This document shows positions 7,401 through 37,596 of a stretch of DNA of 37,596 nt, one piece after another. This stretch comes from a virus. A model generated the notes under the pieces. It saw nothing but the letters and a program-made list of their open reading frames with translations. It searched no databases and had not been told where the DNA came from. How positions within the stretch are numbered: position 1 is the first letter of the stretch; every line of letters starts with the position of its first letter. The DNA is taken from positions 1 through 37,596 of the IMG/VR virus record IMGVR_UViG_3300036761_001186, one strand, 5' to 3'. The position numbers and the translations under genes are program-made.

Positions 7401-8817
7401 CAACAAGGCATTGCTGGCGCAAGGCGACGCTGCCAAGGAAGGGGCGGAAAAAACAAAGACGGCGCTCGAGGTCGCGCAAACAGAACTCACAAAAGTGTCG
7501 GATCAACTTGGAGAAGTATCCAAGAAACTTGCCGAAGGAATCCAACTTTCGATTACCGCTAATACCGATGCTGTAACTAAAACGATTGCGGAACTCGACG
7601 TCAAGATCGGCGAACAAGAACATCTGATGGCGATCAAAGCGGACGTCACGCTTGCACAGGTCGAAATCAAACGGCTGAAGGACGAGCTCGACCAAGGCAT
7701 CACAGTAAACGTCAAAGGGCGGACTGACGAAATCGAAGCGGCGCTCCAGCGCGTTGCGAAGGATGCCCCGGAACTGCAAGTCGACGTGACGAAGGCACTG
7801 ACCGCCGTCGGCGAAGTCAAAACCGCTGCCGCGGCCATTGCCAATATCCACGTGCAGATCGAATCCAACGCGGCCGACGTTCGCGCGGAGATCGATTCCC
7901 TCAACAATCGAGACACGTCGTCGACGCACACGATCTATGTCCGGCGCGTTGAAACGAATGCGGCCGGCGGGCCGGTAGGATTTGCGCTCGGCGGAAATGT
8001 GTTCACGCATCCGAACTGGCGCAAGGTTCCAGGCGTCGGCGATCGCGACACCGTGCCGGCGGCGTTGCCGGTTGGCGCTTACGTCCTCCGCAAAGCCGCG
8101 GTTGCGAAATACGGCGACGGCCTCCTCGGCCGGTTAGCGCGCGGGTACGCGGCCGGCGGGCCGGTGGAAAGCAAATTCCCCGAGAATTACTGGGTCACGT
8201 ACCGGGACACCATCGCGCAGTTGCGCGAGTTGCAAGAAAAGTCTGTCGGCGGCATGCGCGAGACGCCGTTTACAAGCATGGGCGATTGGGCGGGGACGAT
8301 GATCGACAATTTCGTCTTTTTCAGCAAAGACCATCGCGAACAAGTGAAGCGGCTCCTCGACGAAAGTTTTTCCGGGTGGTTGCAAGGAATCTACGCGGCG
8401 AAATCCCTGCAAATTCCGCTGGTGATGGAAATGGGCCTGACCGCTTTGCTCGGCCGGTATGCGTCCGGCGGCATGACTGACACTGTGCCGGCAATGCTCA
8501 CGCCTGGCGAGTGGGTCATCGCCCCGCCGGCGGTCGCGAAGTACGGCGGCGATTTTATGCACGCCCTGAACAATCTGCAAGTGCCGAGAGGGTTCCTCGA
8601 CAATGTGTTGAACTTCGCGCCGCCAAGGCCTCAGACGGCCGCTATAGCGCGTTTCGCCGAAGGGGGGCCGGTTGGTACGGCGAAGCGAGGCGGCAGCGTT
8701 GTAGGCGGTTCTACGGGGAATCTGACCGTGAACATCTACACGCAGAAGCTCGACCGCGAGGAGGTTCGCCGTTCGGTAATTCCGGAGATCGACAAGATCA
8801 TGAAGCGGGGGCGCTAG
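4432..8817 (+). CDS. Tail tape measure protein (TP901-type core)
   Basis: 1461 residues, starting one base after the chaperone frameshift stop. The N-terminal part (about 1-230) is coiled-coil-like. Residues about 248-410 match the TP901 tape measure core: FRDFAQQVAAVDSIADTTKG, then SLGVDAVESTRALYEIISSG and FVVLTRQGFDAPEAATAINR. Hydrophobic stretches follow at about 550-640 (AIAIGGAALVVIIKQLAIPF), as in proteins delivered to the host membrane. A long Ala/Lys/Glu coiled-coil section occupies about 740-1150. The C-terminus has repeated AAGGPV/YASGGM/RFAEGGPV blocks linked to VPAALPVGAYVLRKAAVAKYG-type motifs, typical of tape measure ends. Length sets tail length; this protein would predict a long tail. 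No lysozyme or peptidase domain is evident. Confidence 0.9.
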   Translation: MVDKVSTFLIGFEGDDTSIRSLLSGLRSQFKSAISDIEATTKNVKLFGDIEKNVQTTAAALTKAKQEVDTLTAAFNSLKISGGASATSMAVIQSSLKSAQAELKSTTREFDRSAASLTKLENTLTRAGIDTKNLAAEEIRLEDAARAANVALIEQSSKALLGFKGLKDIQPQINQLNAAFQSLRDSGKLSFGELSTAQARLQQSVRALKTEATGLGQAFFDIRGRLIAFAAAFAGITHGVTESAKNFRDFAQQVAAVDSIADTTKGNIDKLADGVRELAKSLGVDAVESTRALYEIISSGIPQENALTVLRLASKAAIAGLTDVQTAAAVGVAVLNGYGLQITELDHVYDVLFQTVKDGVVTFPELAKNIGTVIPAARAAKVPIEELGAAFVVLTRQGFDAPEAATAINRAIIDLSAPAPESAERLRALGIEIKGLTGTIEQLASRNFNLSQIAQIIPDVRAQRAVLALINNFKLLRDELGEMNKQAGQTQAAYLKLANTPQQQVAKFNAAVKDLSISLGEFVTNSSGGLVTSLTGMVNAFNALAPATKTAAIQFAAIAIGGAALVVIIKQLAIPFNLLVGAMSASGTGATAAIEGLTGVALAAAGLKVALVGLLSFKIGEQLYENFAPVRKIGDIIGTLYASLVNLSEFGVTRFFAFLTGNTKLANEATAAFQRNRDVLRDQWGLAVSGASERLRALDVQQAKLIDNLGKSSAAAVNAAGVLDTSVSKIAASVGVQISGLDVFITRLQQRLTQLSATLQQNAQIVQTLGQAAIAKVNANAAAQLAALDTLRNSQLAIASQTLAIQTKQAAERLAAIQKESVDSQKAFEASAQARVDIAKRTGEDLKRVERDIALERRTLLQGIVDANRAHVNELIGQLTGYLNTVRDIELKRVGFNQDAEEKIRGIRAATLSVFDQYYVKVREIDRLISEGRKALANGDATLAEDYSKRAIAATGEISKAVTDGQNVVVSQSEASAKAISKIRDAADLGNKALLAQGDAAKEGAEKTKTALEVAQTELTKVSDQLGEVSKKLAEGIQLSITANTDAVTKTIAELDVKIGEQEHLMAIKADVTLAQVEIKRLKDELDQGITVNVKGRTDEIEAALQRVAKDAPELQVDVTKALTAVGEVKTAAAAIANIHVQIESNAADVRAEIDSLNNRDTSSTHTIYVRRVETNAAGGPVGFALGGNVFTHPNWRKVPGVGDRDTVPAALPVGAYVLRKAAVAKYGDGLLGRLARGYAAGGPVESKFPENYWVTYRDTIAQLRELQEKSVGGMRETPFTSMGDWAGTMIDNFVFFSKDHREQVKRLLDESFSGWLQGIYAAKSLQIPLVMEMGLTALLGRYASGGMTDTVPAMLTPGEWVIAPPAVAKYGGDFMHALNNLQVPRGFLDNVLNFAPPRPQTAAIARFAEGGPVGTAKRGGSVVGGSTGNLTVNIYTQKLDREEVRRSVIPEIDKIMKRGR

Positions 8818-18743: not shown

Positions 18744-19364
18744 GTGATCCGCGAAGGGTGGGGGGCGGTCGTCTGTGTGGCCAGCGGCCCATCGTTCACC
18801 GTTGAGCAAGCCGAACTGATCGCCGCTGCGCGCGCGGCGGATCGCTGCCGCGTCATCGTCGTCAACGACAACTGGCGGCGTTTGCCGGGAGCAGACATCC
18901 TATATGCGGGCGACGGAAAATGGTTCGATCTGTATGTCGACAAGATCAGGGCCGCCAGCTTCTCCGGAGAACTGTGGACGCAGGACCATGCGGCATCGGA
19001 AAAGCATGGCCTGCACCACATCGAATCGAAGTGCGGGAACGAACTGCTTTCGCGTGACGATCACCGAATCACGCAAGGGCAGAACAGCGGGTTCCAGGCG
19101 ATCATGTTGGCGAGGCTGTTCGGCGCGCGGACGGTCGTACTTTGCGGCTTCGATATGATGCGCGGCCCTCATGGCGAAAAGCACTGGTTCGGCGCCCATC
19201 CGCTGCCGCTCTCCAATGGCGATCCGACTTCGTTCCGGCGTAACTTCGAGGCGGTCGCGCTTGGGCTGAAAGCCGAGGGAACGCGAGTCGTCAACTGTAG
19301 TGCCGTGACGGCTCTTACTTGTTTCGAGCGCGCCGATCTTGCCACAACACTCTCCGCACTCTGA
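18744..19364 (+). CDS. DUF115-like Rossmann protein of the glycan cassette
   Basis: 206 residues from GTG 18744. The start WGAVVCVASGPSFTVEQAEL is a Rossmann-like beta-Gly-x-Gly strand, followed by RVIVVNDNWRRLPGADILYA and HRITQGQNSGFQAIMLARLF, which resemble the DUF115/6-hydroxymethylpterin-pyrophosphokinase-like family, some members of which modify glycans. It is the first enzyme of seven tightly packed genes. The substrate is unknown. It may prepare or transfer a sugar or phosphate in surface-polysaccharide modification; that is inference from neighbours. Confidence 0.55.
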   Translation: MIREGWGAVVCVASGPSFTVEQAELIAAARAADRCRVIVVNDNWRRLPGADILYAGDGKWFDLYVDKIRAASFSGELWTQDHAASEKHGLHHIESKCGNELLSRDDHRITQGQNSGFQAIMLARLFGARTVVLCGFDMMRGPHGEKHWFGAHPLPLSNGDPTSFRRNFEAVALGLKAEGTRVVNCSAVTALTCFERADLATTLSAL

Positions 19365-19372
19365 GGACATCC

Positions 19373-19966
19373 GTGGAAACCGCAGTCGCAACCGCAACTC
19401 TCGAATCCCTCTACAAGGCGCACTGCGCCGCCAACACCGCGATTTCCGCGCACCTGCCGAGGCTGCGACGGTTGGCCGAAGGACTCGACGTCGTGGTGGA
19501 GTTTGGCGTGAAGCGCGGGGCGTCGTCGTCGGCGCTGTTGCTGGGCGCCGCAGTCGTCGTGAGTTACGACGTAGCCTCGACGCGCGAGGCGCAGGACTTG
19601 AAACGCGTCGTCGGCGCGCGCTGGCACTACATGCTCGAAGATTCGCGCCAGGCGGATGTCCCCGTCTGCGATCTCCTATTCATCGACTCGCAGCACGACT
19701 ATGCCCAATGCCGCGCCGAGCTGGAGGCGCACGCCGATAAGGTAGGCCGATATCTAGCGTTCCACGATACGATCACCTTCGGTTCAGTGGGCGCGAAGGG
19801 CGAGACCGGCGAGCACTCGTGGCAGTACCAACGCGGGCAATGCTGCCCGCCGAACTGTCTTGGCGTCCGGCAGGCGATCGACGAGCTGATGATCCGCGAC
19901 CCATCGTGGCGCATCGCGGCGGCCTATCCGGATTCGCACGGTCTGCTTGTGCTCGAGCGGCGATGA
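19373..19966 (+). CDS. Class I SAM-dependent methyltransferase-like protein (1)
   Basis: GTG 19373 has a good ribosome site (GAGGA, 5 nt upstream) just after the previous stop; the frame extends to 19319 but that part overlaps the upstream gene. A motif I-type strand and loop (LDVVVEFGVKRGASSSALLL) and an acidic motif (CDLLFIDSQHDYAQC), then RYLAFHDTITFGS, match the Methyltransf_24-type fold, where IDxxHxY and HDT are usual. 197 residues is normal for a single domain. It shares its stop with the next gene's start (ATGA). It probably methylates a sugar in the same pathway as its neighbours. Confidence 0.7.
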   Translation: METAVATATLESLYKAHCAANTAISAHLPRLRRLAEGLDVVVEFGVKRGASSSALLLGAAVVVSYDVASTREAQDLKRVVGARWHYMLEDSRQADVPVCDLLFIDSQHDYAQCRAELEAHADKVGRYLAFHDTITFGSVGAKGETGEHSWQYQRGQCCPPNCLGVRQAIDELMIRDPSWRIAAAYPDSHGLLVLERR

Positions 19967-20529
19967 TTCACTACATCGGCGACCTGTCGCGTCGCGATGC
20001 CGAACTGCTCCGCGTGCTGGCCGTAAAAGCCGATCGCATCCTCGAATTCGGGGCCGGCGCGTCGACGCAGATATTCGCTGCGTATGGGCGCGGGACCGTG
20101 GAGACGGTTGAGACCGATCTGGAGTGGATCGAGAAAACACATCGCAACTTCTTGGCGATCGGGATCGAACGGACGATCACGTTTCACATCTGGCAGGCTT
20201 TCGTGCCAGTCGGACCTTACTCGCTGATCTTCGTCGATGGCATCGACGAATTGCGCCGGGAGTTCGCCTTCAAGACATGGCCAACGCTTGCGATCGGCGG
20301 CGTCATGTGCTTCCACGACACCCGCCGTACTGCCCCGCACGGGGCGTCCAAGACCTCGGACATTCAGAACGCGTTGGCCATTGCCGAGACCTTCTCTCCG
20401 GAGGTCGATCGCGTCGTGCTGAACCAGGCTGACTCCAACATCACCGTCGTGACCAAGCGCGCCCCCTTGTTGCTCGAGGATTGGAATGCGATCGAAGGAC
20501 GTACAGCCGCCATGATAGGCATCGCGTGA
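19963..20529 (+). CDS. Class I SAM-dependent methyltransferase-like protein (2)
   Basis: ATG 19963 overlaps the previous stop; the longer frame from 19819 is antisense-like and excluded. 188 residues: motif I ILEFGAGASTQIFAAYG, then VETDLEWIE, SLIFVDGIDELRREF and GGVMCFHDTRR. This is the methyltransferase fold with FVDG and HDTR motifs as in the previous protein, but with low direct similarity. It lies in the middle of the glycan cassette. The acceptor is unknown. Confidence 0.7.
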   Translation: MIHYIGDLSRRDAELLRVLAVKADRILEFGAGASTQIFAAYGRGTVETVETDLEWIEKTHRNFLAIGIERTITFHIWQAFVPVGPYSLIFVDGIDELRREFAFKTWPTLAIGGVMCFHDTRRTAPHGASKTSDIQNALAIAETFSPEVDRVVLNQADSNITVVTKRAPLLLEDWNAIEGRTAAMIGIA

Positions 20530-21206
20530 TCGTCGTCTATACCGCCATTTTCGGCGGCAGCGATTCGCTCAAGCCAGCGCCTCCGGCCGACCGCTGCGTC
20601 TGCTACACCGACGACACGAAGCTCGCCGGTGCTGGCTGGGAAATTGTACGGCGCCCGCCTGAGAAGAGCGCCCGCCGCGCTGCCCGCGTGCTGAAAATGT
20701 CGGCCTCAGAAATGTTCCCCAACGCCGAAGCGTCCGTATGGGTAGACGGCTCGATCGAAATCTGTGATTGGGCTTACCTCATGGCGGACACCGACAAAGC
20801 CGATATCGCGTGCTTTACACATCCCGATCGCTCGAACTGCTACGACGAGGGCCGCAAGGTCGTGCAGTTGCGCATCGCCCATGCGAGCAAGGTTCATCTC
20901 GCGCTTGAGATCTACCGCCGCGATGGATTCTCGCCGACGGCGCTTTCGACGACCGGTCTATTTTTCCGCAAACACACGCCTGCGGTTGCCGCGTTCAACG
21001 CCCTCTGGCGCGCGCACCTTGACCGTTTCGGGACGAACGACCAGGTACACGTCGACTATTGCGCATGGAAGTGCGGTGTTCCGATCACCTATCTCGCAGG
21101 CCACTACCGCGACAACCCGTACGCGCGCTATGACAAGGCGGACCATCATCGACGGCGCCGACCGCAGTTCCTGATCGAGGAGGACTGTGCGCATTATCTG
21201 GCGTGA
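20526..21206 (+). CDS. DUF616-type glycosyltransferase-like protein
   Basis: GTG 20526 overlaps the previous stop (GTGA) and gives 226 residues. The opening VVYTAIFGGSDSLKPAPP, then CVCYTDD, ARVLKM and ASVWVDGSIEI, are hallmark segments of DUF616 (related to plant TOD1/MUCI70 proteins), a glycosyltransferase-like family. WVDGS is the likely nucleotide-sugar/metal site. The C-terminus contains TNDQVHVDYCAWKC. In the cassette it likely transfers a sugar to a surface or virion glycan. Confidence 0.7.
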   Translation: MIVVYTAIFGGSDSLKPAPPADRCVCYTDDTKLAGAGWEIVRRPPEKSARRAARVLKMSASEMFPNAEASVWVDGSIEICDWAYLMADTDKADIACFTHPDRSNCYDEGRKVVQLRIAHASKVHLALEIYRRDGFSPTALSTTGLFFRKHTPAVAAFNALWRAHLDRFGTNDQVHVDYCAWKCGVPITYLAGHYRDNPYARYDKADHHRRRRPQFLIEEDCAHYLA

Positions 21207-21675
21207 CGACGACGTCCTGTTCCATCGGCATCGCTTGCCCGAACTGCTCGCGCTTGACGATATATTCCAGCGCTACGGATGTCTGCATACCGTCGCAATC
21301 ATCGCCGAGACGCTGACGCCTGAACTCGGCGCCATCATCCGCGAGCGCGGCATGTCGGCGCAGTTGCACTGCTGGTCGCACGACGATCTGTCCGTCGACG
21401 AAACAGCGATCGCACAACTTCCGGCTGCGGTTGCAAAGATCGAAGACATGGTCGGGGCGCGCCCGACGATCCTATACCCGCCGTGGAATCGGACGAGCCA
21501 GGCGCTCGAGGCTGCCGCAGCCGCGCTCGGCCTAACCGTGTCATGGCAGAAAATCTCGCTCGAGCAGTACATCCGCGCAAATGGCGACGTGTCCGAGACG
21601 GTGTGCAATTTTCACTACTGGAACGAGGGCGATGCGAAGTTGATCGAGCCGGCGCTCAAGATCGCGACCGCATGA
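21187..21675 (+). CDS. Polysaccharide deacetylase-like protein (CE4 fold)
   Basis: 162 residues from GTG 21187, overlapping the 3' end of the DUF616 gene by 20 nt. The N-terminus RIIWRDDDV gives the catalytic Asp pair (D7-D9); LHCWSHDDLS gives an HxxxH metal site (H61, H65); YPPWNR (98-102) is the usual third motif of NodB/CE4 deacetylases. It is shorter than most, probably a minimal barrel. Deacetylation of N-acetyl sugars in a surface polysaccharide is expected. There is no signal peptide, so it would act in the cytoplasm, for example on a lipid-linked precursor. Confidence 0.75.
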   Translation: MRIIWRDDDVLFHRHRLPELLALDDIFQRYGCLHTVAIIAETLTPELGAIIRERGMSAQLHCWSHDDLSVDETAIAQLPAAVAKIEDMVGARPTILYPPWNRTSQALEAAAAALGLTVSWQKISLEQYIRANGDVSETVCNFHYWNEGDAKLIEPALKIATA

Positions 21676-22166
21676 AAACGACGGATTACGCGCCGCGCGC
21701 CGCTCCGTTCGATAGCTACCTCAAAGGCCGCGACCTCGTCGGCGCAGAAATCGGCGTCGACGTTGGGGCGCACGCCGAGGCGCTGCTCACCTATTGCCCG
21801 GTCGCGATGCTGCACCTCGTCGACCCGTGGCCGAAGGAGTGGGCGCGCGGGTACTGCGAAGGACGGCTCGCGCGCTTCCGTGCCCGCGTTGAAATGCACC
21901 AGACCAGCTCGCTCGACGGCGCGCGATCGTTCCCGCCAGGCAGTCTCGACTTTGCCTACATCGACCAGGTACACGACGGGCCGAGCGTTACGGCCGATCT
22001 TCACGCTTGGTGGCCGCTCGTTAAGCCGGGCGGCGTCCTCGGCTACCGCAATTATGCGGAAGGACGCGGCGAACCGTTGGACCTGGCGATTGATGCCTTC
22101 GTCGCCGAGCATCGGATCCGGACGAAGTACGAGCGGTATCTGAACGACCTGATCCTGTTCCGTTGA
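21672..22166 (+). CDS. Class I SAM-dependent methyltransferase-like protein (3)
   Basis: ATG 21672 overlaps the deacetylase stop (ATGA); 164 residues. Motifs: VGAEIGVDVGAHAEALLTY, HLVDPWPKEW, LDFAYIDQVHDGPSVTADLH and WWPLVKPGGVLGYRNY. This is the pattern of Methyltransf_24-like proteins where DP.W and YID..H are conserved. It is the third methyltransferase-like gene in the cassette. The stop overlaps the TTG start of the last gene. Confidence 0.7.
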   Translation: MKTTDYAPRAAPFDSYLKGRDLVGAEIGVDVGAHAEALLTYCPVAMLHLVDPWPKEWARGYCEGRLARFRARVEMHQTSSLDGARSFPPGSLDFAYIDQVHDGPSVTADLHAWWPLVKPGGVLGYRNYAEGRGEPLDLAIDAFVAEHRIRTKYERYLNDLILFR

Positions 22167-22861
22167 AAATCTCCGTCCTCACGCCAACCTGCGACCGGCC
22201 CGTAGCCTTCGCTCTCTGCGAGCGCTGGATCGCTCGGCAAACCGTCCAACCGGACGAATGGATCGTCGCCGACGGCGGGCAAGTCCCGGCAGTCTGCACG
22301 ATGAGGCAGATCCATCTCCACAATCCGCGCCAGCCGGGGGCCGAGAACTTCGCCCACAACCTGCTTGCCGGCATCGCCGCGGCGAAGGGCGATATTTGCG
22401 TCGTGATCGAGGACGATGACCACGTCGCCCCTACGCACATCGAATCCCTCGTCGCCGCGCTCGCCTGCCCCTATTCTCTCCTCGCGGGCGACGACGTCCA
22501 GCGCTACTACAACGTCGCCCATCGCTGCTGGCGCATCTTCAACAACGTCGGCGCCTCCCTCTGCCAAACCGCCATGCGCCGCGGGGCGCTTGGGCTCTTC
22601 GAGACCATCATCCGCCAATGCCTCGCTAGCGGCACCTATGGCATCGACACGACGCTCTGGCGGGCCGTGCCGACGGCGCAATGGGCGCTCACCGGGAAAC
22701 AGACCGTTCTCGGCATCAAGGGGCTGCCGGGGCAGGCCGGCCTCGGCATCGGGCATCGGCCGGCGGGCCCGGGTTGGGCTCCGGACCCGGATCTCGCGAA
22801 GCTGCGAGAGTGGATCTGGGAGGATGCAGAGCTGTACGCTGAGTATCGCCCACCGAAATGA
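22163..22861 (+). CDS. Glycosyltransferase family 2 protein
   Basis: TTG 22163 overlaps the previous stop and opens MKISVLTPTCDRPVAFALCE, the classical GT2 beginning. EWIVADGG and IEDDDHV (acidic residues 84-86, nucleotide-sugar/metal site) support a GT-A fold. 232 residues is short but complete for GT2. It is the last gene of the cassette, and 226 bp separate it from the integrase. Probable role: transfer of a sugar in surface-glycan decoration. Confidence 0.75.
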   Translation: MKISVLTPTCDRPVAFALCERWIARQTVQPDEWIVADGGQVPAVCTMRQIHLHNPRQPGAENFAHNLLAGIAAAKGDICVVIEDDDHVAPTHIESLVAALACPYSLLAGDDVQRYYNVAHRCWRIFNNVGASLCQTAMRRGALGLFETIIRQCLASGTYGIDTTLWRAVPTAQWALTGKQTVLGIKGLPGQAGLGIGHRPAGPGWAPDPDLAKLREWIWEDAELYAEYRPPK

Positions 22862-23087: not shown

Positions 23088-24065
23088 ATGCCAACCTATC
23101 GCAAGCGGGGCAACACCTGGCGCGCCGAGGTCAAGTGTGCTGGCGTGCGGCTGTCCAACACGTTCCAGACCAAGGCGTCCGCCGTCGCTTGGGCAAAGCA
23201 GCGCGAGGGGGAAATCCTCGCCGGCAAACGCGGACAGATCATAGCGCGAACCGTCCGCCATGCGCTCGAGCGGTACGCCGAGGTCGTGAGTCCAAAGCAC
23301 CGCGGTGAACGTTGGGAGAAGGCCCGCCTTACCAAGCTGTCGCGCGAACTGCCATTCGCCGGGCGCTGGCTCGCCCATGTCCGGCGCGACGACGTGGCGA
23401 AGTGGCGGGACTCCATGCTCGACAAGCTGGCGCCGGCGTCGGCGCGGCGGGAGTTCGGCCTGTTGCGTGCCGTGTTCGCCGTCGTCGTGCGCGAATGGCG
23501 ATGGCTCAACGAATCCCCTTTCGCCGGGATCTCTCCGCCACCGGAAGGCAAACCCCGCACGCGCCGGGTGAGCGACGACGAAATCGACCGGATCATGCTG
23601 GCCTTGAACTATGAGCGCGGCATGCGCCCCGAATCGGCTTCGCAATTCGTCGCCGCGGCGGTCCTCCTGGCTTTAGAAACGGCGCTGCGGCAGGGCGAGA
23701 TACTTTCCCTCAACGGCGGGCGGATCAACGCGCCTGCGCGTTTCCTGCGCCTTGTGGATACGAAGAACGGGGAAGCGCGAGACGTGCCGCTGTCCAAGGC
23801 AGCGCTCGCCGTGCTCGAGCTGCTCCCCGACCCGCCGTTTCCTCTCGCGGCGCATACCTTCGACATCCTGTTCCGCAAGGCCAGAAGGCGGGCGGGGTTG
23901 AATGATGTCCACTTTCACGACCTAAGACGAGAGGCGACGACGCGGCTAGCGGCAAAACTCGACGTCCTGACCTTGGCGAAGATGACCGGCCACAAGGACG
24001 TGAAACTGCTGTTGAAGGTGTATTACGCGCCGGACATGACGAGCGTTGCCGAGCGGCTAGACTAG
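23088..24065 (+). CDS. int: Tyrosine site-specific integrase
   Basis: 325 residues, full length. The N-terminus (TYRKRGNTWRAEVKCAGV) is an arm-binding-type domain and residues about 50-145 a SAM-like core-binding domain. The catalytic set is present: Arg201 (TALRQGEILSL), Lys226 (VDTKNGEARDVPL), His277 and Arg280 (VHFHDLRREATTR), His302 (MTGHKDVKLLLK), and nucleophile Tyr312 or Tyr313 (KVYYAP). It integrates and, with an excisionase, excises the phage. Its stop is shared with the convergent excisionase-like gene (CTAG at 24062-24065). Confidence 0.95.
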   Translation: MPTYRKRGNTWRAEVKCAGVRLSNTFQTKASAVAWAKQREGEILAGKRGQIIARTVRHALERYAEVVSPKHRGERWEKARLTKLSRELPFAGRWLAHVRRDDVAKWRDSMLDKLAPASARREFGLLRAVFAVVVREWRWLNESPFAGISPPPEGKPRTRRVSDDEIDRIMLALNYERGMRPESASQFVAAAVLLALETALRQGEILSLNGGRINAPARFLRLVDTKNGEARDVPLSKAALAVLELLPDPPFPLAAHTFDILFRKARRRAGLNDVHFHDLRREATTRLAAKLDVLTLAKMTGHKDVKLLLKVYYAPDMTSVAERLD

Positions 24066-24265
24066 GCGGTGAGTTCGCGCTGCTGGCGCATCCATTCATC
24101 GATTTCCGCGGCATTCCAGCGCGGGTTGCCCTTGCCGCCGATGCGTGAAGGTTTCGGGAAATCGGGCCGGCAGGCGATGCGCTCGCGGATGATGCGGGCT
24201 TCGTAGCCGAGCATGGTCCCGACGCCTTCCGCGTCGAGCCATAGGATCTGCGTTGGGATCAGCAT
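24062..24265 (-). CDS. AlpA/excisionase-like DNA-binding protein, 67 aa
   Basis: The start is ATG at 24265, overlapping the upstream gene's stop; the frame extends further but inside that gene. The 67 residues contain ILWLDAEGVGTMLGYEARII, then PDFPKPSRIGGKGNPRWNAA and EIDEWM, the winged-helix pattern of AlpA and excisionase proteins (helix-turn-helix, RxG...RW..EI..W). Encoded opposite to and touching the integrase gene, it is the best excisionase candidate. It is last in the leftward early operon, so it would be made when the repressor is lifted, as expected for excision. Confidence 0.7.
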   Translation of the reverse strand: MLIPTQILWLDAEGVGTMLGYEARIIRERIACRPDFPKPSRIGGKGNPRWNAAEIDEWMRQQRELTA

Positions 24266-24795
24266 GAGGCGGCTTCGGCCCGCTGCCTTGCGATCCGTGG
24301 TTCCAAGACGTAGCGCCCGTACCAATCGATCAACCGTACTTCCCCTGGAGCGCCGACGGTTCCGCCGACGAAAAGTCGAACAGTCACATAATCACAGTCC
24401 AGCGCGAACCAAAGATTGGCGTAGGCGTGTCGGCGCTTTGCGGTCAGGTGGCACGTATGCACTATTTCGTAGCAGTGCAGCTCGTCATCGACTATCTTCC
24501 AGGCGTCAGGTCTGACGGTAATGTCGTCTATGATTTCGTCGCGGAAGATGGGGCGTCCTTTCGGATGATCCCATTGCCCGCCTTCGACCATTCGCACATC
24601 GCTGTCTGTGTAGGTCCATTTGCGAAGTACCGCAGCACGGAACCCATCGCGCAAAAGCGTAGAGTCGCTCGCACATAGAGCTTGAACCGCGGCCTCATGC
24701 TCCGTGATCGTCCGCTCGGGTTTATGGACGGATCTGTGCCTCCGGCGCCGAGCTTCGCGGAGTTTGATGCGCTCAATATCGGTCAGTTCGATCAT
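24259..24795 (-). CDS. Hypothetical early phage protein, 178 aa
   Basis: ATG 24795 has a ribosome site (GGGAGA about 7 nt upstream on the minus strand). The product is basic at the N-terminus (KLREARRRRHRSVHKPERTI) with a compact middle (DITVRPDAWKIVDDELHCYE, HLTAKRRHAYANLWFALDCD). I do not recognise a family. The context, between excisionase and the DUF1566/RT remnant region, marks it as an early non-structural gene. Confidence 0.6.
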   Translation of the reverse strand: MIELTDIERIKLREARRRRHRSVHKPERTITEHEAAVQALCASDSTLLRDGFRAAVLRKWTYTDSDVRMVEGGQWDHPKGRPIFRDEIIDDITVRPDAWKIVDDELHCYEIVHTCHLTAKRRHAYANLWFALDCDYVTVRLFVGGTVGAPGEVRLIDWYGRYVLEPRIARQRAEAASC

Positions 24796-24823: not shown

Positions 24824-25092
24824 CTAGCCCTTCTCGGCCATGGCCCGCAATGCCCGCTCGGTATGGATCATATTGGTCCACTCGTCGCGGATCTTGGTGA
24901 CACCGGCGCCGCTCCATGCGCCGTTTACGACGTTCGAACGGCGCAGCTCGTCGTGGAGACAGATCAGGTTGCGCTCGAGGTCCTGCTCGAAGGCTAGTGC
25001 GCTGTGGGAGTTGCGCTTCGTGCGGCGGCAGTCGAAGTAGGCCGCAACCAGGTCCTCAAAAGAAAAGTCAGCATGCTCGACAGCGTTTCCAT
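24824..25092 (-). pseudogene. Remnant of a DGR-type reverse transcriptase: N-terminus only, frameshifted
   Basis: On the minus strand, directly after the variable 3' end of the DUF1566 gene, one frame encodes FSFEDLVAAYFDCRRTKRNS followed by HSALAFEQDLERNLICLHDE. As I know the family, this is the opening helix region of DGR/group-II-intron-related reverse transcriptases (F..L..AY..CRR.KRN..ALAFE..LE.NL..L...L). The following fingers and palm, including the YxDD catalytic motif, are absent; residues after DELRRS are unrelated and stop at 24824. A start ATG exists at 25092 but in another frame: adding one T to the run around 25058-25065 would join METLSSMLTF to the conserved frame. So the gene looks both frameshifted and truncated. 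Alternatively it is a small unrelated protein. Confidence 0.55.
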
Positions 25093-25691
25093 CTGCGGAC
25101 GGCGCGCGCGCGGAGCTCGTTGAGCTTGCGGTTGCCGTCCTGGAAGCCACCGTTGAAACCCTGGAACCACGCGTAGTCGTTGGTCGACGCGGACTGCGAA
25201 GACGACCAGTACCAGCTCTCGTTGAAAGCCTCGGCGCCGCCCTTGCGAAACGCCGTGGTGCTGGTTTGACCAGGCAGTGTTTCGCTGTACGGGTAGCCGG
25301 GCGGCACACTGCTAGGGTTGTCGCCGTGCCTGTAGACCCAGTTCTCCCCGGTGCCCGGCTTGAAATGGCGATAGAGCAGCTCGAGCTCGTCGCGGCTCGG
25401 CAGGTACCAATCGTCGAATTGGCCGATGCGCAGGGCAATCGCCCACTTCGCGAGCGCGCTGCCAGCCTTGGCCATGGCGAGCGTGTTGGCGTGCCCATCG
25501 CATAAGCTGCCGGCATCGGCGACCATCTTGACGGTCTTGTTCCATGGCGTGTCGTCGTGCTCGCCGTCGGCCTTGGGCGCCACGACCAGGGCGAACAGGT
25601 CGTCACCGATACGGAACTGACCGGCGTAGAAGCCACCCGCGTAGGGCAGGCCAATGGCCGTGGGACGTTCAACTTCGACTGCGGTGTTCAT
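25068..25691 (-). CDS. DUF1566 (C-type-lectin-fold) protein A with DGR-type variable region
   Basis: 207 residues; ATG 25691 has a strong AGGAGG. DUF1566 hallmarks: FDDWYLPSRDELELLY, then ESWYWSSSQSAS and ELRARAVRR near the C-terminus. Proteins of this fold are frequent targets of diversity-generating retroelements, the variable residues forming a ligand-binding face. Codons from 25199 down to 25091 align without gaps to protein B (29905-30390), differing at 13 codons only at positions 1 and 2. The end differs from B: instead of ARAVRRLAI it reads ARAVRRWKRCRAC and runs into the reverse-transcriptase remnant, as if the variable repeat had recombined with a template repeat that lay before that gene. 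It is an accessory or surface-binding protein in the leftward operon. Confidence 0.8.
   Translation of the reverse strand: MNTAVEVERPTAIGLPYAGGFYAGQFRIGDDLFALVVAPKADGEHDDTPWNKTVKMVADAGSLCDGHANTLAMAKAGSALAKWAIALRIGQFDDWYLPSRDELELLYRHFKPGTGENWVYRHGDNPSSVPPGYPYSETLPGQTSTTAFRKGGAEAFNESWYWSSSQSASTNDYAWFQGFNGGFQDGNRKLNELRARAVRRWKRCRAC
25091..25199 (-). repeat. DGR-like variable repeat of protein A (VR-A)
   Basis: This 109-bp segment aligns to 29916-30024 with 16 differences and no gaps. All differences fall on codon position 1 or 2. The last 30 bp in coding direction (25120 down to 25091) are identical to the other copy and contain an uninterrupted 14-nt G/C run (25100-25113), resembling the (G/C)14 element of the initiation-of-mutagenic-homing site known from the Bordetella phage BPP-1 DGR. 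Confidence 0.7.
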
Positions 25692-25782
25692 GAAGCCTCC
25701 TCAGTTGTATGGGTAAAAGTGCAAACCCTTGATCGTGTCAGGAACACGAGTCAATCGAAAAGCGCGTCGCTGGCCCGGTGCG

Positions 25783-26346
25783 TCACGCCTCCGCTCCCTC
25801 CGCAACCTTCCGCCCGCGACGCGGCTTCTGCTCGTCGGCGAGGTCCGGCGCTTTCGCCTCCGGCGGTTCGAGGCTGATCTCGACATCCTTGCTGATCATG
25901 TACGAGAGCTTCCCGTTCTGCTGCTCGGACGGATGGCCATGCACGCGGAAGCCGACGATCACGGTGCCGCCCTGCTGCGGGTCGAGCGTGAACTTGTTGA
26001 CGTCTACACCCTGGAGCACGAGATCGGAGCGCCCGCCGATGCCGTGATGAATGGTGAGCGTCGCGCCGACCATTTCGAGATTCCATTCGAGCGGACCGAC
26101 TAGCTTCGGGAAGCGGAGATCCGGCGCGTCGCTGCCCTGGTCGGCCAGGTCGTTGGAGGCCTCGCTAGACTTGTGGAACAGAAACGAGCGCAAGGTCGGG
26201 TCGAGCATGGCGAGATTGGCCGACGCCATGTTGAGCGAGAAGCGAAGATCCGCGGCCGGTTTGGGATCCTCGCCGTGCTTCTCGGCGCGCGGATTGAAAT
26301 TAACCATGATGCCTGATTGATGGTCGAGCTCGAAGGTCGGAGTCAC
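25783..26346 (-). CDS. Conserved phage hypothetical of the recombination module, 187 aa
   Basis: The start is taken as GTG 26346 (VTPTFELDHQSGIMVNF) with AGGA about 8 nt upstream, rather than the longer frame. The product is soluble, beta-rich in the middle (VGATLTIHHGIGGRSDLVLQ) and ends in a basic Lys/Arg tail (EQKPRRGRKVAEGAEA). It directly follows the recombination-associated gene, so it may serve DNA recombination, for example binding DNA through the basic tail. No family is recognised. Confidence 0.6.
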   Translation of the reverse strand: MTPTFELDHQSGIMVNFNPRAEKHGEDPKPAADLRFSLNMASANLAMLDPTLRSFLFHKSSEASNDLADQGSDAPDLRFPKLVGPLEWNLEMVGATLTIHHGIGGRSDLVLQGVDVNKFTLDPQQGGTVIVGFRVHGHPSEQQNGKLSYMISKDVEISLEPPEAKAPDLADEQKPRRGRKVAEGAEA

Positions 26347-26397
26347 AGGAGGTCCTTTCGTTGTTGGTGAGCGCGTGCGCACGCCGCTCCGTGATCG

Positions 26398-27417
26398 TCA
26401 CGCCCTCGTCTGCGCTTCTGCCCCTTCGAGCGTCTTGCGCTTGGCGCGAATCTCGACATCGGCCTCGGCTACCTGCGCTGGGTCCGTCAATCCGCGTGCG
26501 AGATCGGCGACCAAGTCGAGATCGTCGTTGCTCGACGCGGCTTTAATGCGCTCAGCGATCGCGGCGAAGGTCGGGCCGGTACCACCATCCTTTTTCGTCT
26601 CCGCCGCCGACTTCTTGTCGCCGCCCTTGATCCCGGCATTGAGCGCCGACACGGCGTCGCTTCCGGAGCCTTGTGCTTCAACTGCAAAGATGGATTCGGC
26701 CGATCCGTCGCCATCTTTGATGGCGGTCAGGAATCCGTTCAGGGTCACCAGGTCGTCGACGGTAATGTCCTGAACTCCGGTGCGACCGAGCCGTGCGAGT
26801 ATCTGTGCCTGGTCGATCCCGTACACGACGAACGCCTTGACCGCATCGGCGCGCTTGTTCGCGATCGATTTGATATCGCCAACAGACGCGCGCCGCGCGG
26901 ACTCGTACATTTCTGACCAGAACGCTTTCGGAATGCCCTTCAGGATGGCGTTGCGCAGCGCGATGGAGCAAGCGGCGTTCGCGGTCACGCCAATCATGTC
27001 CGGCTTGTACTTCTTTCCATTCTTGTCGGTGATGCGCCGTTGCACTTCGTACGTGATCGCGACGTTGCGCTCGAGGTCGTGAAACACTCCCTGTGCGGTG
27101 ACGAAGTCGTTGCCCTCGTTCACGACGCGAGCGCCGGCCCTGGCGTTGCCCCAGGCGGAGGCGGCAACCTCGGCGAACCGGGCGCTCGGGCCTTCAATCA
27201 CCTTGCCGTCGCGGGGCAAGGCATAGATGCACTCGCCGGCGATTTTCTCGGTGAGCGTGACCATCTGCAGCATTTCCTTGCGGAAGGCGACAAGGCTGCG
27301 CGGGTATTTGTGCGCCGTGGCGATTTGCTGATCGATCTCTGACTTGTTGAGGATCGCGAGCGTGCCGCTCTCGACGGTCATGACTTCGCGGCCTTCGGAA
27401 ATGTCGTTCTGTGGCAT
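26398..27417 (-). CDS. Phage recombination-associated protein, possible ssDNA-annealing type
   Basis: 339 residues; ATG 27417 with AGGAGA. The central region (CIYALPRDGKVIEGPSARFA, then EVAASAWGNARAG and NAACSIALRNAILKGIP) matches a phage family with LPR.GK.I.GPS.R.AE and AN...R.RACIL-type motifs that is usually encoded beside RecE-like exonucleases. By analogy it may act as the annealing or mediator partner, but this is inferred from context, not from a RecT signature. The C-terminal third (residues about 235-339) is low complexity, Ala/Lys/Asp-rich. It is 9 bp downstream of the nuclease gene. Confidence 0.55.
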   Translation of the reverse strand: MPQNDISEGREVMTVESGTLAILNKSEIDQQIATAHKYPRSLVAFRKEMLQMVTLTEKIAGECIYALPRDGKVIEGPSARFAEVAASAWGNARAGARVVNEGNDFVTAQGVFHDLERNVAITYEVQRRITDKNGKKYKPDMIGVTANAACSIALRNAILKGIPKAFWSEMYESARRASVGDIKSIANKRADAVKAFVVYGIDQAQILARLGRTGVQDITVDDLVTLNGFLTAIKDGDGSAESIFAVEAQGSGSDAVSALNAGIKGGDKKSAAETKKDGGTGPTFAAIAERIKAASSNDDLDLVADLARGLTDPAQVAEADVEIRAKRKTLEGAEAQTRA

Positions 27418-27426
27418 TGCGGTCTC

Positions 27427-28371
27427 CTATACGTTGAGAGTCGTAGCCCACCTGGGCAACGTGATGGTTTCGATCGTGGCGGGGTATCCGTCCCAGCGGC
27501 CCGCGGCGAGTGCCGCGGCGTAACGCTCGAGCGCGATGTTCATCTTGTGCGCGCCGACCAGGATCCCGTTCGATGGCATTTGGTACAGGGCGACGGCGTG
27601 CGGCTCCTGGGACTCGACCGCGATGAAAATGAAAAACTCCGGCGTCGCATCCAACGTGTGCTCGGCGCCTGAAAAGTAGTGCGCGCTTTGGATCGTGTAG
27701 CCGTAGTTGGCAATCGACTTGGCGAACTCCTCAGGCGAGGCATCGGCCGTCGTCTTCAGATCGGTGATGCCGCCGTGACTGCGGATGTCCAAGCGCGCCT
27801 TGCACGGCACCTTGTACTTGCCGTCGATCCAGAAGAGTGACGTTTCGACGATCGCGCCATCGAGCATGCGGCGCGCGCCAGGATGCGACAGCACGGCATC
27901 GATGCAGCGCTGCGCGCGGTGGTAGTCGTCTACGGTCAGGGTGATCTTGCCGGCGTTTGCTTGGCGGAATGATTCCCATCCGATCTTGCCGACCGTGGTG
28001 CGCTTATTGAACTCAGGTGCGACGACGACTCGCTGAGCGAACGTTTCCGGCTCGAGCACGCCCGCGTGCACGGCGGAGCCGAATATCATCGTTTCCGTCG
28101 GTGGCTTCTGCTTCCGGCGATCGGTGATGTAGTGCATTGGAGATTTCAGGATCTTGCCGGCGCCGGACTGACTTATCGCCTCGATCGCGAAGTAAGTCTC
28201 CGCCGGCATATCGTTGAACACGCCCGTGACAAATGGCGGCGGCGGCTGCTCCGGTCGGTCGTCGCCTGTTCCAACACCTGGCCCGACGTCGAGTACGGTA
28301 AGCGCATGCGCGTGAGCGCCAGGCGAGCGGCTCACTTCAGTCCCCGTGAGCATGAAATCCGGCAGGCTCAT
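27427..28371 (-). CDS. RecE-like PD-(D/E)XK exonuclease (DUF3799 type)
   Basis: 314 residues, starting with an ATG overlapping the upstream stop (ATGA). After a Pro-rich N-terminal 50 residues come YFAIEAISQSGAGKILKSP, GSAVHAGVLEPE (98-109), the nuclease core CKARLDIRSHGGITDLKTT (Asp195, Asp204-Leu-Lys206) and QSAHY (Gln228-x3-Tyr232), the QxxxY motif of RecB-family nucleases. This is the architecture of RecE C-terminal-type exonucleases, which make 3' overhangs for strand annealing. It pairs with the protein encoded just downstream. Confidence 0.85.
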   Translation of the reverse strand: MSLPDFMLTGTEVSRSPGAHAHALTVLDVGPGVGTGDDRPEQPPPPFVTGVFNDMPAETYFAIEAISQSGAGKILKSPMHYITDRRKQKPPTETMIFGSAVHAGVLEPETFAQRVVVAPEFNKRTTVGKIGWESFRQANAGKITLTVDDYHRAQRCIDAVLSHPGARRMLDGAIVETSLFWIDGKYKVPCKARLDIRSHGGITDLKTTADASPEEFAKSIANYGYTIQSAHYFSGAEHTLDATPEFFIFIAVESQEPHAVALYQMPSNGILVGAHKMNIALERYAAALAAGRWDGYPATIETITLPRWATTLNV

Positions 28372-29663
28372 GCTTCGGCCTTCGCCGGCGTGTGCGCTTC
28401 GGCGATTAGCGCGATCGCGTCGCGCGCATCGGCGTCAGTCACATCAGGGGAATAACAGATCGCAACGATCGCCGCGAACGCAAGCTCCGGCGTGGGGTGC
28501 TCCGCACGGGCATTCTCAATGGCTTGGCGGCGCAATTTCGCAGCCTGGATCTCGGCCTCGCGCTGCGCCGCCTCGGCCTTGCGCCTCTCCTCAGCGCGAG
28601 CTTCGGCTTCCTGCCGTTCCTGGGTCGCGCGCGCTTCCGCTTGCTCGCGCTCGCGCGCCTCGTGGGCGATCCGGTCACGCTCCGCTTGCTGGCGTTCTTC
28701 CTCGTCACGCGCTGCCTTTTCTCGAGCCGCCAGAGCTGCGTTCGCGTCCGCGATGCGCCGTTGCTCGGCTTCGTTCGCAGCCCGTTCCAGTGCTTGTTTT
28801 TCAGCCAGCTTGGCGGCTTCCTTGGCGCGCTGCTCGCGCGCAGCTTTGTCTGCGGCGTCGCGTTCAGCCTTGGCCGAGGCGTCTTCTGCGGCGCGCGCTT
28901 CCCTGGCGATCCGCGCCTCGTCGCCGAGGCGTTTCCGCTCGGCGGCTGCCTCCGCGTCGCGCTTCGCCTTGGCTGCGCGCTCCTCTTCGGCGAGCCGGGC
29001 GCGTTCAGCTGCAGCAGCGGCCTCCTGTGCCGCTTTTTGCCGCGCAAACTCCTCGCGTTCTGCTTTCAGGCGCGCGGCTTCTATTTCATTGGCCACCGCC
29101 GTCGCATGCATTTCGCGCAACGTCGTCAGCGTTGTTTCGACCGCGCCTTGTGCGAGCGACTGGAACTCGGCGTACAGCTCGGCCTTCACCGGCAGCGCGG
29201 TGAGCGTTTCGATCGTCTCGGCCAACAACGCGGCAGGCTTGTTGATGCAGGCAGCGACGTTGGAGCGAATCCAGTCGATACGCTTGTTGATCGTGGCGAC
29301 ACGGTCGGCCTCGGCTTTCGCCTTCGCTTGCTTCTCGGCCTCCTTGCGGTCCTCCTCTTTCTTGATCTGCGCGTCGATCGGGTCCTCCAGCGCGAGCAGC
29401 TCGGCACTTAGCGCTTTCGCCTCCGCGTCGATCAGGCGCGCGCGCTCGAGCGCCGGCGCCTTGATCTGAACGCGCAGCTTTTCGAGGGACGTGCGTAGCG
29501 TCACGCACTCGCGGCGGTCCTTTCTGGCGCGCTCCATGCCGACCGCGGTTGTCACGTCGTAGACGACGTTCACCAGACGTGACCGAAGCTCGGCCAAACC
29601 GGCTGCTGTGGGCGAATACTCGGCGATCTGCGTCACCGGCTTCTCGACCGTTTCTGTATTCAT
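28368..29663 (-). CDS. Coiled-coil phage early protein, 431 aa
   Basis: ATG 29663 is preceded by AGGAGGG. Residues 1-190 look folded (AEYSPTAAGLAELRSRLVNV, then a helical RESPONSE-free region rich in Leu/Glu); residues about 195-400 are an almost uninterrupted Ala/Glu/Arg/Lys coiled coil; the last 30 (ICYSPDVTDADARDAIALIA) form a small helical end. Such proteins are common beside phage recombination genes and may organise DNA or protein assemblies, but no activity is known to me. Its DNA is strongly repetitive in composition and produces long antisense frames that are not genes. The stop overlaps the RecE-like start. Confidence 0.65.
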   Translation of the reverse strand: MNTETVEKPVTQIAEYSPTAAGLAELRSRLVNVVYDVTTAVGMERARKDRRECVTLRTSLEKLRVQIKAPALERARLIDAEAKALSAELLALEDPIDAQIKKEEDRKEAEKQAKAKAEADRVATINKRIDWIRSNVAACINKPAALLAETIETLTALPVKAELYAEFQSLAQGAVETTLTTLREMHATAVANEIEAARLKAEREEFARQKAAQEAAAAAERARLAEEERAAKAKRDAEAAAERKRLGDEARIAREARAAEDASAKAERDAADKAAREQRAKEAAKLAEKQALERAANEAEQRRIADANAALAAREKAARDEEERQQAERDRIAHEAREREQAEARATQERQEAEARAEERRKAEAAQREAEIQAAKLRRQAIENARAEHPTPELAFAAIVAICYSPDVTDADARDAIALIAEAHTPAKAEA

Positions 29664-29875
29664 GCGTCCCTCCTAAGGCGCATCGACACCAAGCCGTAGC
29701 TGCGTTTGGCCGGAGAGATCTTCGCCATCAATCGCGATTCCTCGGCTCGCAGCGAACGCATGGTCGCGTCGTGCCGGGCGTGGCGCGCCTCCGCGTCGGC
29801 CATCAAATCGCGGATCCACGCGAGGTCCAGGCGCAGCCAAAGCCGGTACGGCCAGGTGATAAGGCGACGGATCAT
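29660..29875 (-). CDS. Small basic early phage protein, 71 aa
   Basis: ATG 29875 has a perfect AGGAGG upstream, and the stop overlaps the coiled-coil gene start (ATGA), so the two are translated together. The product is Arg-rich with an amphipathic N-terminus (RRLITWPYRLWLRLDLAWIR) and a helical middle (ADAEARHARHDATMRSLRAE). It might associate with membranes or with the coiled-coil protein. No family is recognised. Confidence 0.6.
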   Translation of the reverse strand: MIRRLITWPYRLWLRLDLAWIRDLMADAEARHARHDATMRSLRAEESRLMAKISPAKRSYGLVSMRLRRDA

Positions 29876-29904
29876 CTAACCTCCTGAACGAAATTACTGA
29901 ATGG

Positions 29905-30390
29905 TTAAATGGCTAATCTGCGGACGGCGCGCGCGCGGAGCTCGTCGCCCTTGTGGAGGCTGCCCTGGGTGCCACCGTAGAAATCCTGGCACCACGCGTA
30001 GTCGTCGTTCGACGCGCACTGCGAGGAGGTCCAATACCAATCGCGCGAAAAGGTTTCGGTCTGCTGCAGCTCGCCGAAAGCGATCAGACTTTCAAGGCGG
30101 CTCGGGATGTACCAATCGTCGAAGCCGCCGATGCGCAGAGCCAGCGCCCACTCGGCGAGGGCGCTCTTGGCGGCGGCCATCGCTTTTGTGTTGGCTAGGC
30201 CGTCGCTGTAGCTCACGGCCCCGTTGACCATCTTTAGGCTGCCCCACTCGATCTCAGTGCGCTCACCGTCGAAGGCATCGGCGACGATCAGCGCATACGC
30301 CTGGTTGCCGACGAAGAAACGGCCGGCGAAGATGCCGCCGGCGAACTTCGCACCGGCGGCGGTGGGGATTTCGAGTTCCTTCGTGGTCAT
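29905..30390 (-). CDS. DUF1566 (C-type-lectin-fold) protein B with DGR-type variable region
   Basis: 161 residues from ATG 30390. It is a paralog of protein A over its whole length: TAAGAKFAGGIFAGRFFVG, ALRIGGFDDWYIPSR, WYWTSSQCASNDDYAW and the end ELRARAVRRLAI. The upstream three quarters are diverged from A with ordinary substitutions, whereas the C-terminal 36 codons share every third base with A and differ only at first and second positions. It keeps the short natural end after ARAVRR, so it appears an intact former or present DGR target. It lies in the leftward early operon, separated from A by five genes. Confidence 0.8.
   Translation of the reverse strand: MTTKELEIPTAAGAKFAGGIFAGRFFVGNQAYALIVADAFDGERTEIEWGSLKMVNGAVSYSDGLANTKAMAAAKSALAEWALALRIGGFDDWYIPSRLESLIAFGELQQTETFSRDWYWTSSQCASNDDYAWCQDFYGGTQGSLHKGDELRARAVRRLAI
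29916..30024 (-). repeat. DGR-like variable repeat of protein B (VR-B)
   Basis: Ungapped partner of 25091-25199. The identical 30-bp end is 29916-29945, with the 14-nt G/C run at 29925-29938. Differences to VR-A begin immediately upstream of this block in coding direction and sit in codons of the NNC or NNT type. Confidence 0.7.
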
Positions 30391-36929: not shown

Positions 36930-37596
36930 ACCATGGCTCGCGCTTGCAAAGCACCGTCGAACCTTCCTGGCGCATGACCAGCGATGCTATTCCCCCACTC
37001 GTTCCCGCGAACGTCGACCTCCGCGGTTACGAATTCATGCCCATCTATGGGCACTACCTCTTCGGGTCGGACTTCAATTCGCGCGTCAGCGATACCGCGT
37101 GGCGCGCTGCCCTCACTCTCTGGTGGGCGGCATGGAATCAGGTGCCGGCCGCGTCCTTGCCGAACGACGACATCGCTTTGACCAGACTCGCTGATCTCGG
37201 GCGTGATGTGCGCGGCTTCCGCAAGATCAAGGGGGAGGCGCTTCACGGGTTCGTGATCTGCAGCGACGGCAGGCTGTATCACAAGGCGTTGTCGAAATGG
37301 GCGCTCGAAGCGTGGGCTAGGAGGGTCCAAGACAGGGAGAGGAAGGCCAATTGGCGTGCTTCGAAAACGCGCAATGTCCCGGGGACACGACAGGGACAAG
37401 CCATGGGACAAAGACGGGACAAGCCATGGGACAACAACGGGACAGAGACGGGACAAGCCATGGGACAACAACGGGACAGAGACGGGACAAGCCATGGGAC
37501 AACAACGGGACAGAGACGGGACAAGCCATGGGACAGAACGTCTTTGTCCCGTCTGAAGGGAAGGGAAGTGACAGTGAAGGGAAGGGAAGTGACAGT
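36926..37596 (+). CDS. DUF1376 replication-type protein, 3' partial, with iteron-like array inside
   Basis: The frame opens with GTG 36926 (overlapping the previous stop) or ATG 36974 and is still open at the window edge. NVDLRGYEFMPIYGHYLFGS, SRVSDTAWRAALTLWWAAWN, QVPAASLPNDDIALTRLADL and GFVICSDGRLYHKALSKWAL match DUF1376, a domain found at the start of phage replication or helicase-loader-like proteins. After residue about 150 the frame runs through a GGGACA repeat array, giving Gln/Gly/Asp/Arg-rich low-complexity protein. The array unit is 34 bp, not a multiple of three, so it is read in three phases. The C-terminus lies outside the window. Confidence 0.75.
   Translation, partial: MNHGSRLQSTVEPSWRMTSDAIPPLVPANVDLRGYEFMPIYGHYLFGSDFNSRVSDTAWRAALTLWWAAWNQVPAASLPNDDIALTRLADLGRDVRGFRKIKGEALHGFVICSDGRLYHKALSKWALEAWARRVQDRERKANWRASKTRNVPGTRQGQAMGQRRDKPWDNNGTETGQAMGQQRDRDGTSHGTTTGQRRDKPWDRTSLSRLKGREVTVKGREVT
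37375..37550 (+). repeat. Iteron-like GGGACA array (candidate replication origin)
   Basis: Fourteen direct copies of GGGACA start at 37382, 37393, 37405, 37416, 37428, 37439, 37450, 37462, 37473, 37484, 37496, 37507, 37518 and 37530, spaced 11 or 12 bp. Three exact 34-bp units make up 37416-37517. Inverted copies (TGTCCC) lie at both edges, 37375-37380 and 37545-37550. One-turn spacing inside a replication gene resembles the iterons within lambda gene O. Confidence 0.6.
37555..37596 (+). repeat. 21-bp tandem repeat, two copies, reaching the window end
   Basis: GAAGGGAAGGGAAGTGACAG plus T is repeated exactly at 37555-37575 and 37576-37596. The second copy ends on the last base, so more copies may follow. 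It is purine-rich, in frame within the DUF1376 gene, next to the iteron-like array. Confidence 0.7.

Follow-up and report, generated by a model that had tools for sequence, protein, structure and literature searches.

Two DUF1566 genes, A and B, in a 37,596-nt viral sequence (IMG/VR record IMGVR_UViG_3300036761_001186, positions 1 to 37,596, analysed in full and called the window here) are very probably targets of a diversity-generating retroelement (DGR, an element that puts random bases into one part of a target gene) in which a crossover between a variable repeat (VR) and the template repeat (TR), together with truncation of the reverse transcriptase (RT), has left a relic whose variants are now frozen. 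The parts seen directly in the record are two adenine-patterned VRs and an RT stub in the TR-RT position.

Variable repeats in two lectin-fold genes

25068..25691, minus strand: gene A, DUF1566/Lcl_C target protein with a C-type lectin fold, 207 aa (PF07603, E 5e-11; AlphaFold2 model)
29905..30390, minus strand: gene B, second DUF1566/Lcl_C target, 161 aa (PF07603, E 8e-11; 65% identical to the protein of locus L012)
25091..25199, minus strand: VR A, variable repeat of gene A, its 3′ end fused to a TR-type flank
29916..30024, minus strand: VR B, variable repeat of gene B, from its alignment with VR A and its codon pattern

A gap-free alignment of the segments 25091-25199 and 29916-30024 spans 109 columns, of which 16 differ, in 13 codons, with seven differences at the first codon position, nine at the second and none at the third. 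The residue is altered in every one of the 13 codons, and one of the two copies has A at 11 of the 16 columns. These counts, on which the original prediction was built, are exact on recount, and the variable codons that it described as nearly all NNC are NNC in 12 of the 13 pairs and NNT in the remaining one (GGT/GAT). The third-position changes that it regarded as ordinary just upstream of the repeat occur in 65 of 125 codons (52%) outside it vs 0 of 36 inside (Fisher p = 5e-10), and among codons for shared residues 24/64 differ synonymously outside the repeat and 0/23 inside (p = 2e-4). This double contrast argues that the pattern is not due to chance. Beyond the repeat, A and B have diverged as ordinary paralogues do, and the distance from the VR end to the stop is 7 codons in gene A and 3 in gene B. 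Because the backbone of the repeat shows no difference at all between VR A and VR B, the last homing was recent relative to the divergence of the remaining gene parts. Together with the templates of relatives described below, these patterns make the identification of both segments as DGR variable repeats, including its adenine-specific reading, well supported.

The DUF1566 call for both genes is confirmed by the Lcl_C profile (PF07603), with scores of 43.3 and 42.7 bits against a gathering cut-off of 34.9. The AlphaFold2 model of protein A, built from an alignment of 37 sequences (mean pLDDT 92.7), matches the C-terminal domain of Legionella Lcl (8q4e, Z 12.4) and BACOVA_04982 (4eps, Z 11.3) in the PDB, followed by many C-type lectins at lower scores (Z 6-7.5). 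According to the model, the VR is located at the 3′ end of the gene within the C-type-lectin-fold domain, and the 13 variable residues map to its last strands and loops. Across the family, mean entropy is 2.9 bits at these 13 residues vs 0.9 at the other VR positions.

Relatives were gathered from viral contigs with both genes and patterns taken from the repeat as queries, which yielded 45 loci. The RVT_1 profile matches 26 of the 44 viral records behind L002-L045, as well as the record of L001, and the RTs of related phages carry YVDD. The window's own TR is absent, and the expectation that a template has A at the variable columns was therefore examined in 14 related TRs. There it was borne out: A occupies 181 of 224 cells at the window's 16 variable columns vs 289 of 1288 elsewhere (p = 2e-63, only a guide because the cells are not independent). 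Among 20 VR/TR pairs from 12 of the loci, a few of them near-duplicates, mismatches affect 259 of 624 template A's vs 16 of 1476 other bases. The minimal TR inferred for the window's repeats is SQYASNNDYAWYQDFNGGNQDSNHKNNELRARAVRR. The DGR-type interpretation of the original prediction is thus supported by the relatives' TRs, their RTs and the adenine specificity of their VR/TR differences. Neither of the two outcomes that it had named as grounds for giving the interpretation up was found, and TRs and YVDD-bearing RTs are present in related phages that carry these genes. One of the related contigs, which also holds a DUF1566 DGR, contains a second, different RT (L001/L047, IMGVR_UViG_3300050139_000115, at about 28211; a 351-aa frame), adjoined by an ORF that ends like a classical tail-type DGR target.

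Ordinary paralogues shaped by positive selection or gene conversion, with no retroelement involved, would agree with the membership of both proteins, as diverged paralogues, in a family with a binding fold. The absence of third-position changes in the repeat as against 52% outside, the adenines of the relatives' templates at the variable columns and the RT stub in its place speak against such an origin, which is already refuted by the stub and the relatives' TRs and to which we give virtually no credence. Simple conversion between A and B was rejected separately, because it would not confine the differences to NNC/NNT codons.

Genes A and B lie in an early operon together with RecT-like and exonuclease VIII-like genes; their context also includes a tyrosine integrase gene.

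26398..27417, minus strand: RecT-like recombinase gene between A and B (phrog_3657)
27427..28371, minus strand: exonuclease VIII-like gene (phrog_412, E 2e-76; PF12684)
23088..24065, plus strand: tyrosine integrase (PF00589, E 2e-20)

We infer that the phrog_3657 gene encodes RecT from its position beside exonuclease VIII and from its position in relatives, as RecT-like genes 67-70% identical to it adjoin VR genes in L018 and L020; no close relatives of the gene were confirmed in viral contigs. Since the lectin-fold genes adjoin recT and exonuclease genes and not tail genes, proteins A and B are, on gene position, probably not tail fibres. Three viral DGR clades have been tied mainly to tail proteins (Roux et al. 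2021, PMC8144416). The integrase marks the phage as temperate. The ORF at 24259-24795 has no confirmed close relatives in viral contigs and no phage match, and a search of plasmids for the 5.1-kb target region found none. Elsewhere in the window lie a tandem array of GGGACAAGCCATGGGACAACAACGGGACAGAGAC-type 34-bp units near the record end (37382-37551), an IS1595-type transposase within the phage record (35172-36137; PF12762, PF12760) and an ORF cluster behind the lysis region, with weak glycosyltransferase matches among its members (18744-22861).

The stub and flanks of the repeats

25073..25090, minus strand: remnant of the TR-RT spacer, from flank comparison (GGAAACGCTGTCGAGC + CATGCTGACTTTTC, as behind the TRs of L001, L014, L017 and L018)
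24932..25072, minus strand: DGR RT stub of about 43-45 N-terminal codons (ADFSFEDLVAAYFDCRRTKRN...LHDELRRSN), from tblastn with the RTs of related loci
29889..29916, minus strand: VR-type 3′ flank of VR B with three 8-nt-spaced ATTYA-like units (TTAGCCATTTAACCATTCAGTAATTTCG), as behind 73/78 related VRs

Complete cassettes in relatives run in the order target gene(s), Avd, RT-15 RNA, TR and RT. Their Avd matches Pfam bAvd, RT-15 (Rfam RF03018) was found in L001, L018 and Cruim01, and the distance from the end of the last VR to the end of the TR is 665-691 bp in the ten intact cassettes measured. Behind the VRs of the relatives inspected stands an AT-rich flank (TTnnCCATTyAGTAATTyAG...), and behind their TRs a spacer that runs on into the RT (e.g. 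...CCATGCTGACTTTTCTTTTGAGGA...). Sequence of the type at 25073..25090 stands behind the TR in relatives and never behind a VR; in the window, VR A has a TR-type flank and VR B a VR-type flank. The final seven residues of protein A (WKRCRAC) are consequently translated from the TR-RT spacer.

The spacer remnant is followed by the start of an RT up to 88% identical to those of relatives over 43 aa (E 2e-18, tblastn), the best query being aligned over residues 2-44 of 359. With the relatives' RTs, tblastn matches the record only at 24911-25198 on the minus strand, and the longer matches run through the repeat itself. DNA similarity to relatives stops near 24932-24939; beyond this point lies unrelated DNA, for which, as far as the stop at 24824, no match was found. 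The stub is without the catalytic domain and YVDD, and the RVT_1 profile has no match anywhere in the 37.6-kb record. The original prediction had proposed a search of the record for a template repeat and for an RT with YxDD. A scan of the window for a third copy of the repeat agreeing at no fewer than 50% of the constant columns found none, and as for the RT, the YxDD enzyme is absent and an N-terminal stub of 43-45 codons is present behind VR A. Avd was not found in the place that it occupies in relatives, between VR A and the RT stub, nor was an Rfam RT-15 RNA found in the window. As judged from the sequence, a functional DGR in cis is not supported, the RT with YxDD, the TR and Avd all being missing from the window.

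The flank comparison also reveals a regular element behind the VRs. A pair of [AC]TTY units with a spacing of exactly 8 nt occurs in 73 of 78 distinct VR 3′ flanks (2 of 78 expected from shuffling) and in 0 of 31 TR flanks, and the units have offsets of 6, 14 and 22 relative to the end of the repeat. Gene A of the window, with its TR-type flank, is one of the five VR flanks that lack them. Bordetella phage BPP-1 requires a hairpin or cruciform directly behind the VR (PMC3240598). When the 45-nt flanks of the VRs were folded, no clear signal of a BPP-1-like hairpin was obtained (mean z -0.39, in a group that included some TRs). The 8-nt-spaced ATTYA-like repeats may possibly serve as a homing or recognition signal in place of the hairpin.

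The junction of VR A and the RT stub could also have arisen during assembly by a switch from VR A into the TR at the 3′ end common to both, the true DGR being intact. The join falls exactly in the approximately 30 nt common to VRs and TRs, and repeats of this sort are frequent places for metagenome contigs to break or to be joined, a VR/TR junction being an expected site for a false join. A false join would, however, leave the RT at full length, whereas its homology ends after about 45 codons at a point that coincides with no repeat of the window, and genuine core losses occur in other phages, including Medea1 and Aurca01, whose GenBank genomes are complete. An artefact is therefore improbable, and decay of the element is the preferred reading.

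Loss of the DGR core in the window and in other phages

Under the reading favoured here, RNA of a TR was reverse-transcribed, random bases being placed opposite its adenines, and the cDNA took the place of the 3′ ends of both gene A and gene B. Replacement from one template gives VRs with a common backbone that differ only at template A. VR A would then have recombined with the neighbouring TR inside the common GC-rich 3′ end. Some 0.67 kb, by comparison with intact relatives, would have been lost in this crossover, and with it Avd, the RT-15 RNA and the TR; a further deletion would have taken all RT codons beyond the first 45 or so. What the genome would now encode, in an early recombination operon, is a C-type-lectin-fold binding protein in two frozen variants. 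Without the VR-type downstream element, VR A would not be expected to undergo homing even with an RT provided; VR B would. Searches of viral contigs revealed no exact copy of the RT-deletion junction and no close intact sibling that would prove the ancestral gene order, and the sole find with the RT-start sequence was another intact cassette, L155.

If nothing acts on the VRs in trans today, the loss of the DGR must be younger than the last homing. The record is incomplete, with tail genes present and no head genes recognised, so an RT or TR could lie in the missing part of the phage or in the host, and a co-resident phage might supply them as well. DGRs do work in trans on engineered targets (PMC3240598), L001 holds a second RT, a distal VR cluster in Pseudogulbenkiania accompanies a mutated RT while an intact RT lies elsewhere (PMC3521204), and the lack of backbone differences between VR A and VR B indicates recent homing. 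Yet the RT is located directly behind the TR in intact relatives, so that the stub represents the broken cis copy; VR A has lost its VR-type flank, and a TR is missing. Continued diversification in trans is on balance unlikely, though it retains some weight.

Loss of the core is not confined to the window, and the losses in L020 and Medea1 are independent of it. L020 (IMGVR_UViG_3300012980_000010) has kept three VR genes, and its RT is reduced to the last 70 or so codons behind an inserted gene, which is endonuclease-like by eye and has no Pfam match. The former Avd/TR/RT site of L020 (10618-11584) contains, besides the inserted gene and the C-terminal RT stub, C4 antisense RNA elements. In Medea1, a circular GenBank genome with no RVT_1 match, two VR genes remain, together with a NUMOD4/HNH gene and the last 24 codons of the RT, and the arrangement around the second VR is the same in Aurca01, L036 and L038. 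In all four, the NUMOD4/HNH gene starts just behind the second VR, in place of the DGR core.

NUMOD4/HNH regions:
L077 (Medea1), 6784-7491
L036, 10498-11220
L038, 1899-2612
L154 (Aurca01), 6784-7418

Medea1, L036 and L038 are almost identical around the VR and different inside it; of the 20 columns at which these three vary, 19 have A in the TR of Cruim01 and L037, both DGR-positive. Cruim01 and Aurca01 were isolated on one host strain. Target genes might regularly outlive the retroelement, the VRs of core-less phages still being rewritten in trans by DGR-positive phages of the same host, which we regard as rather unlikely; the VRs of Medea1, L036 and L038 are explained about as well by an endonuclease that spread within a DGR-positive population.

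The decay proposed for the window illustrates a route by which a DGR can die. VR and TR are long direct repeats, and one crossover between them drops Avd and the template with the target gene still working. Surveys of the kind in PMC8144416, which demand an RT close to the repeat, are blind to relics and RT-less targets, and the phage diversity made by DGRs is for this reason probably undercounted.

Relation to known systems

The closest known systems are the intact RT-15-associated DUF1566 DGRs of proteobacterial phages, such as Pseudomonas phage Cruim01 (PP179333) and Burkholderia phage Magia (MT701587). They share with the window DUF1566/lectin targets that end in VRs of the ...AWxQxFxxGxQ...RARAVRR type, the TR-RT spacer and RT N-terminus, and a place in an early operon near recT, exonuclease and SSB genes: the DGR of Magia lies downstream of RecT, an AAA ATPase and a regulator, and that of Cruim01 is preceded by endonuclease and SSB genes. 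These phages possess Avd, a TR and a full RT, whereas the window retains only two VRs and an RT stub of about 45 codons.

BPP-1 resembles the window's family in its adenine-directed VR/TR differences, its GC-rich VR 3′ end and its C-type-lectin-fold target (PMC3240598 and general knowledge). The targets differ, being a tail protein in BPP-1 and recombination-operon genes in the window, and so does the sequence behind the VR, which forms a hairpin or cruciform in BPP-1 and consists of 8-nt-spaced repeats in the window's family. Comparison of VR and TR flanks in this family thus points to a candidate homing signal unlike the BPP-1 hairpin.

DiGReF (PMC3521204) had already reported DGR RTs that are truncated, as well as a VR cluster with its RT at another place. 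As in the window, RTs broken by mutation are found with VR genes that have been kept, in one case a distal VR cluster beside a mutated RT. The breaks in DiGReF are transposon insertions, nonsense mutations and frameshifts, whereas in the window a VR/TR fusion joins the target gene directly to the RT stub. L020 and Medea1 likewise keep two or more VR genes after losing the core, and their RT remnant is the C-terminal end behind an inserted gene, in contrast to the N-terminal end in the window. The window holds genes of a known kind, DGR targets; the new point is that their DGR is broken, in a way made legible by the fusion.
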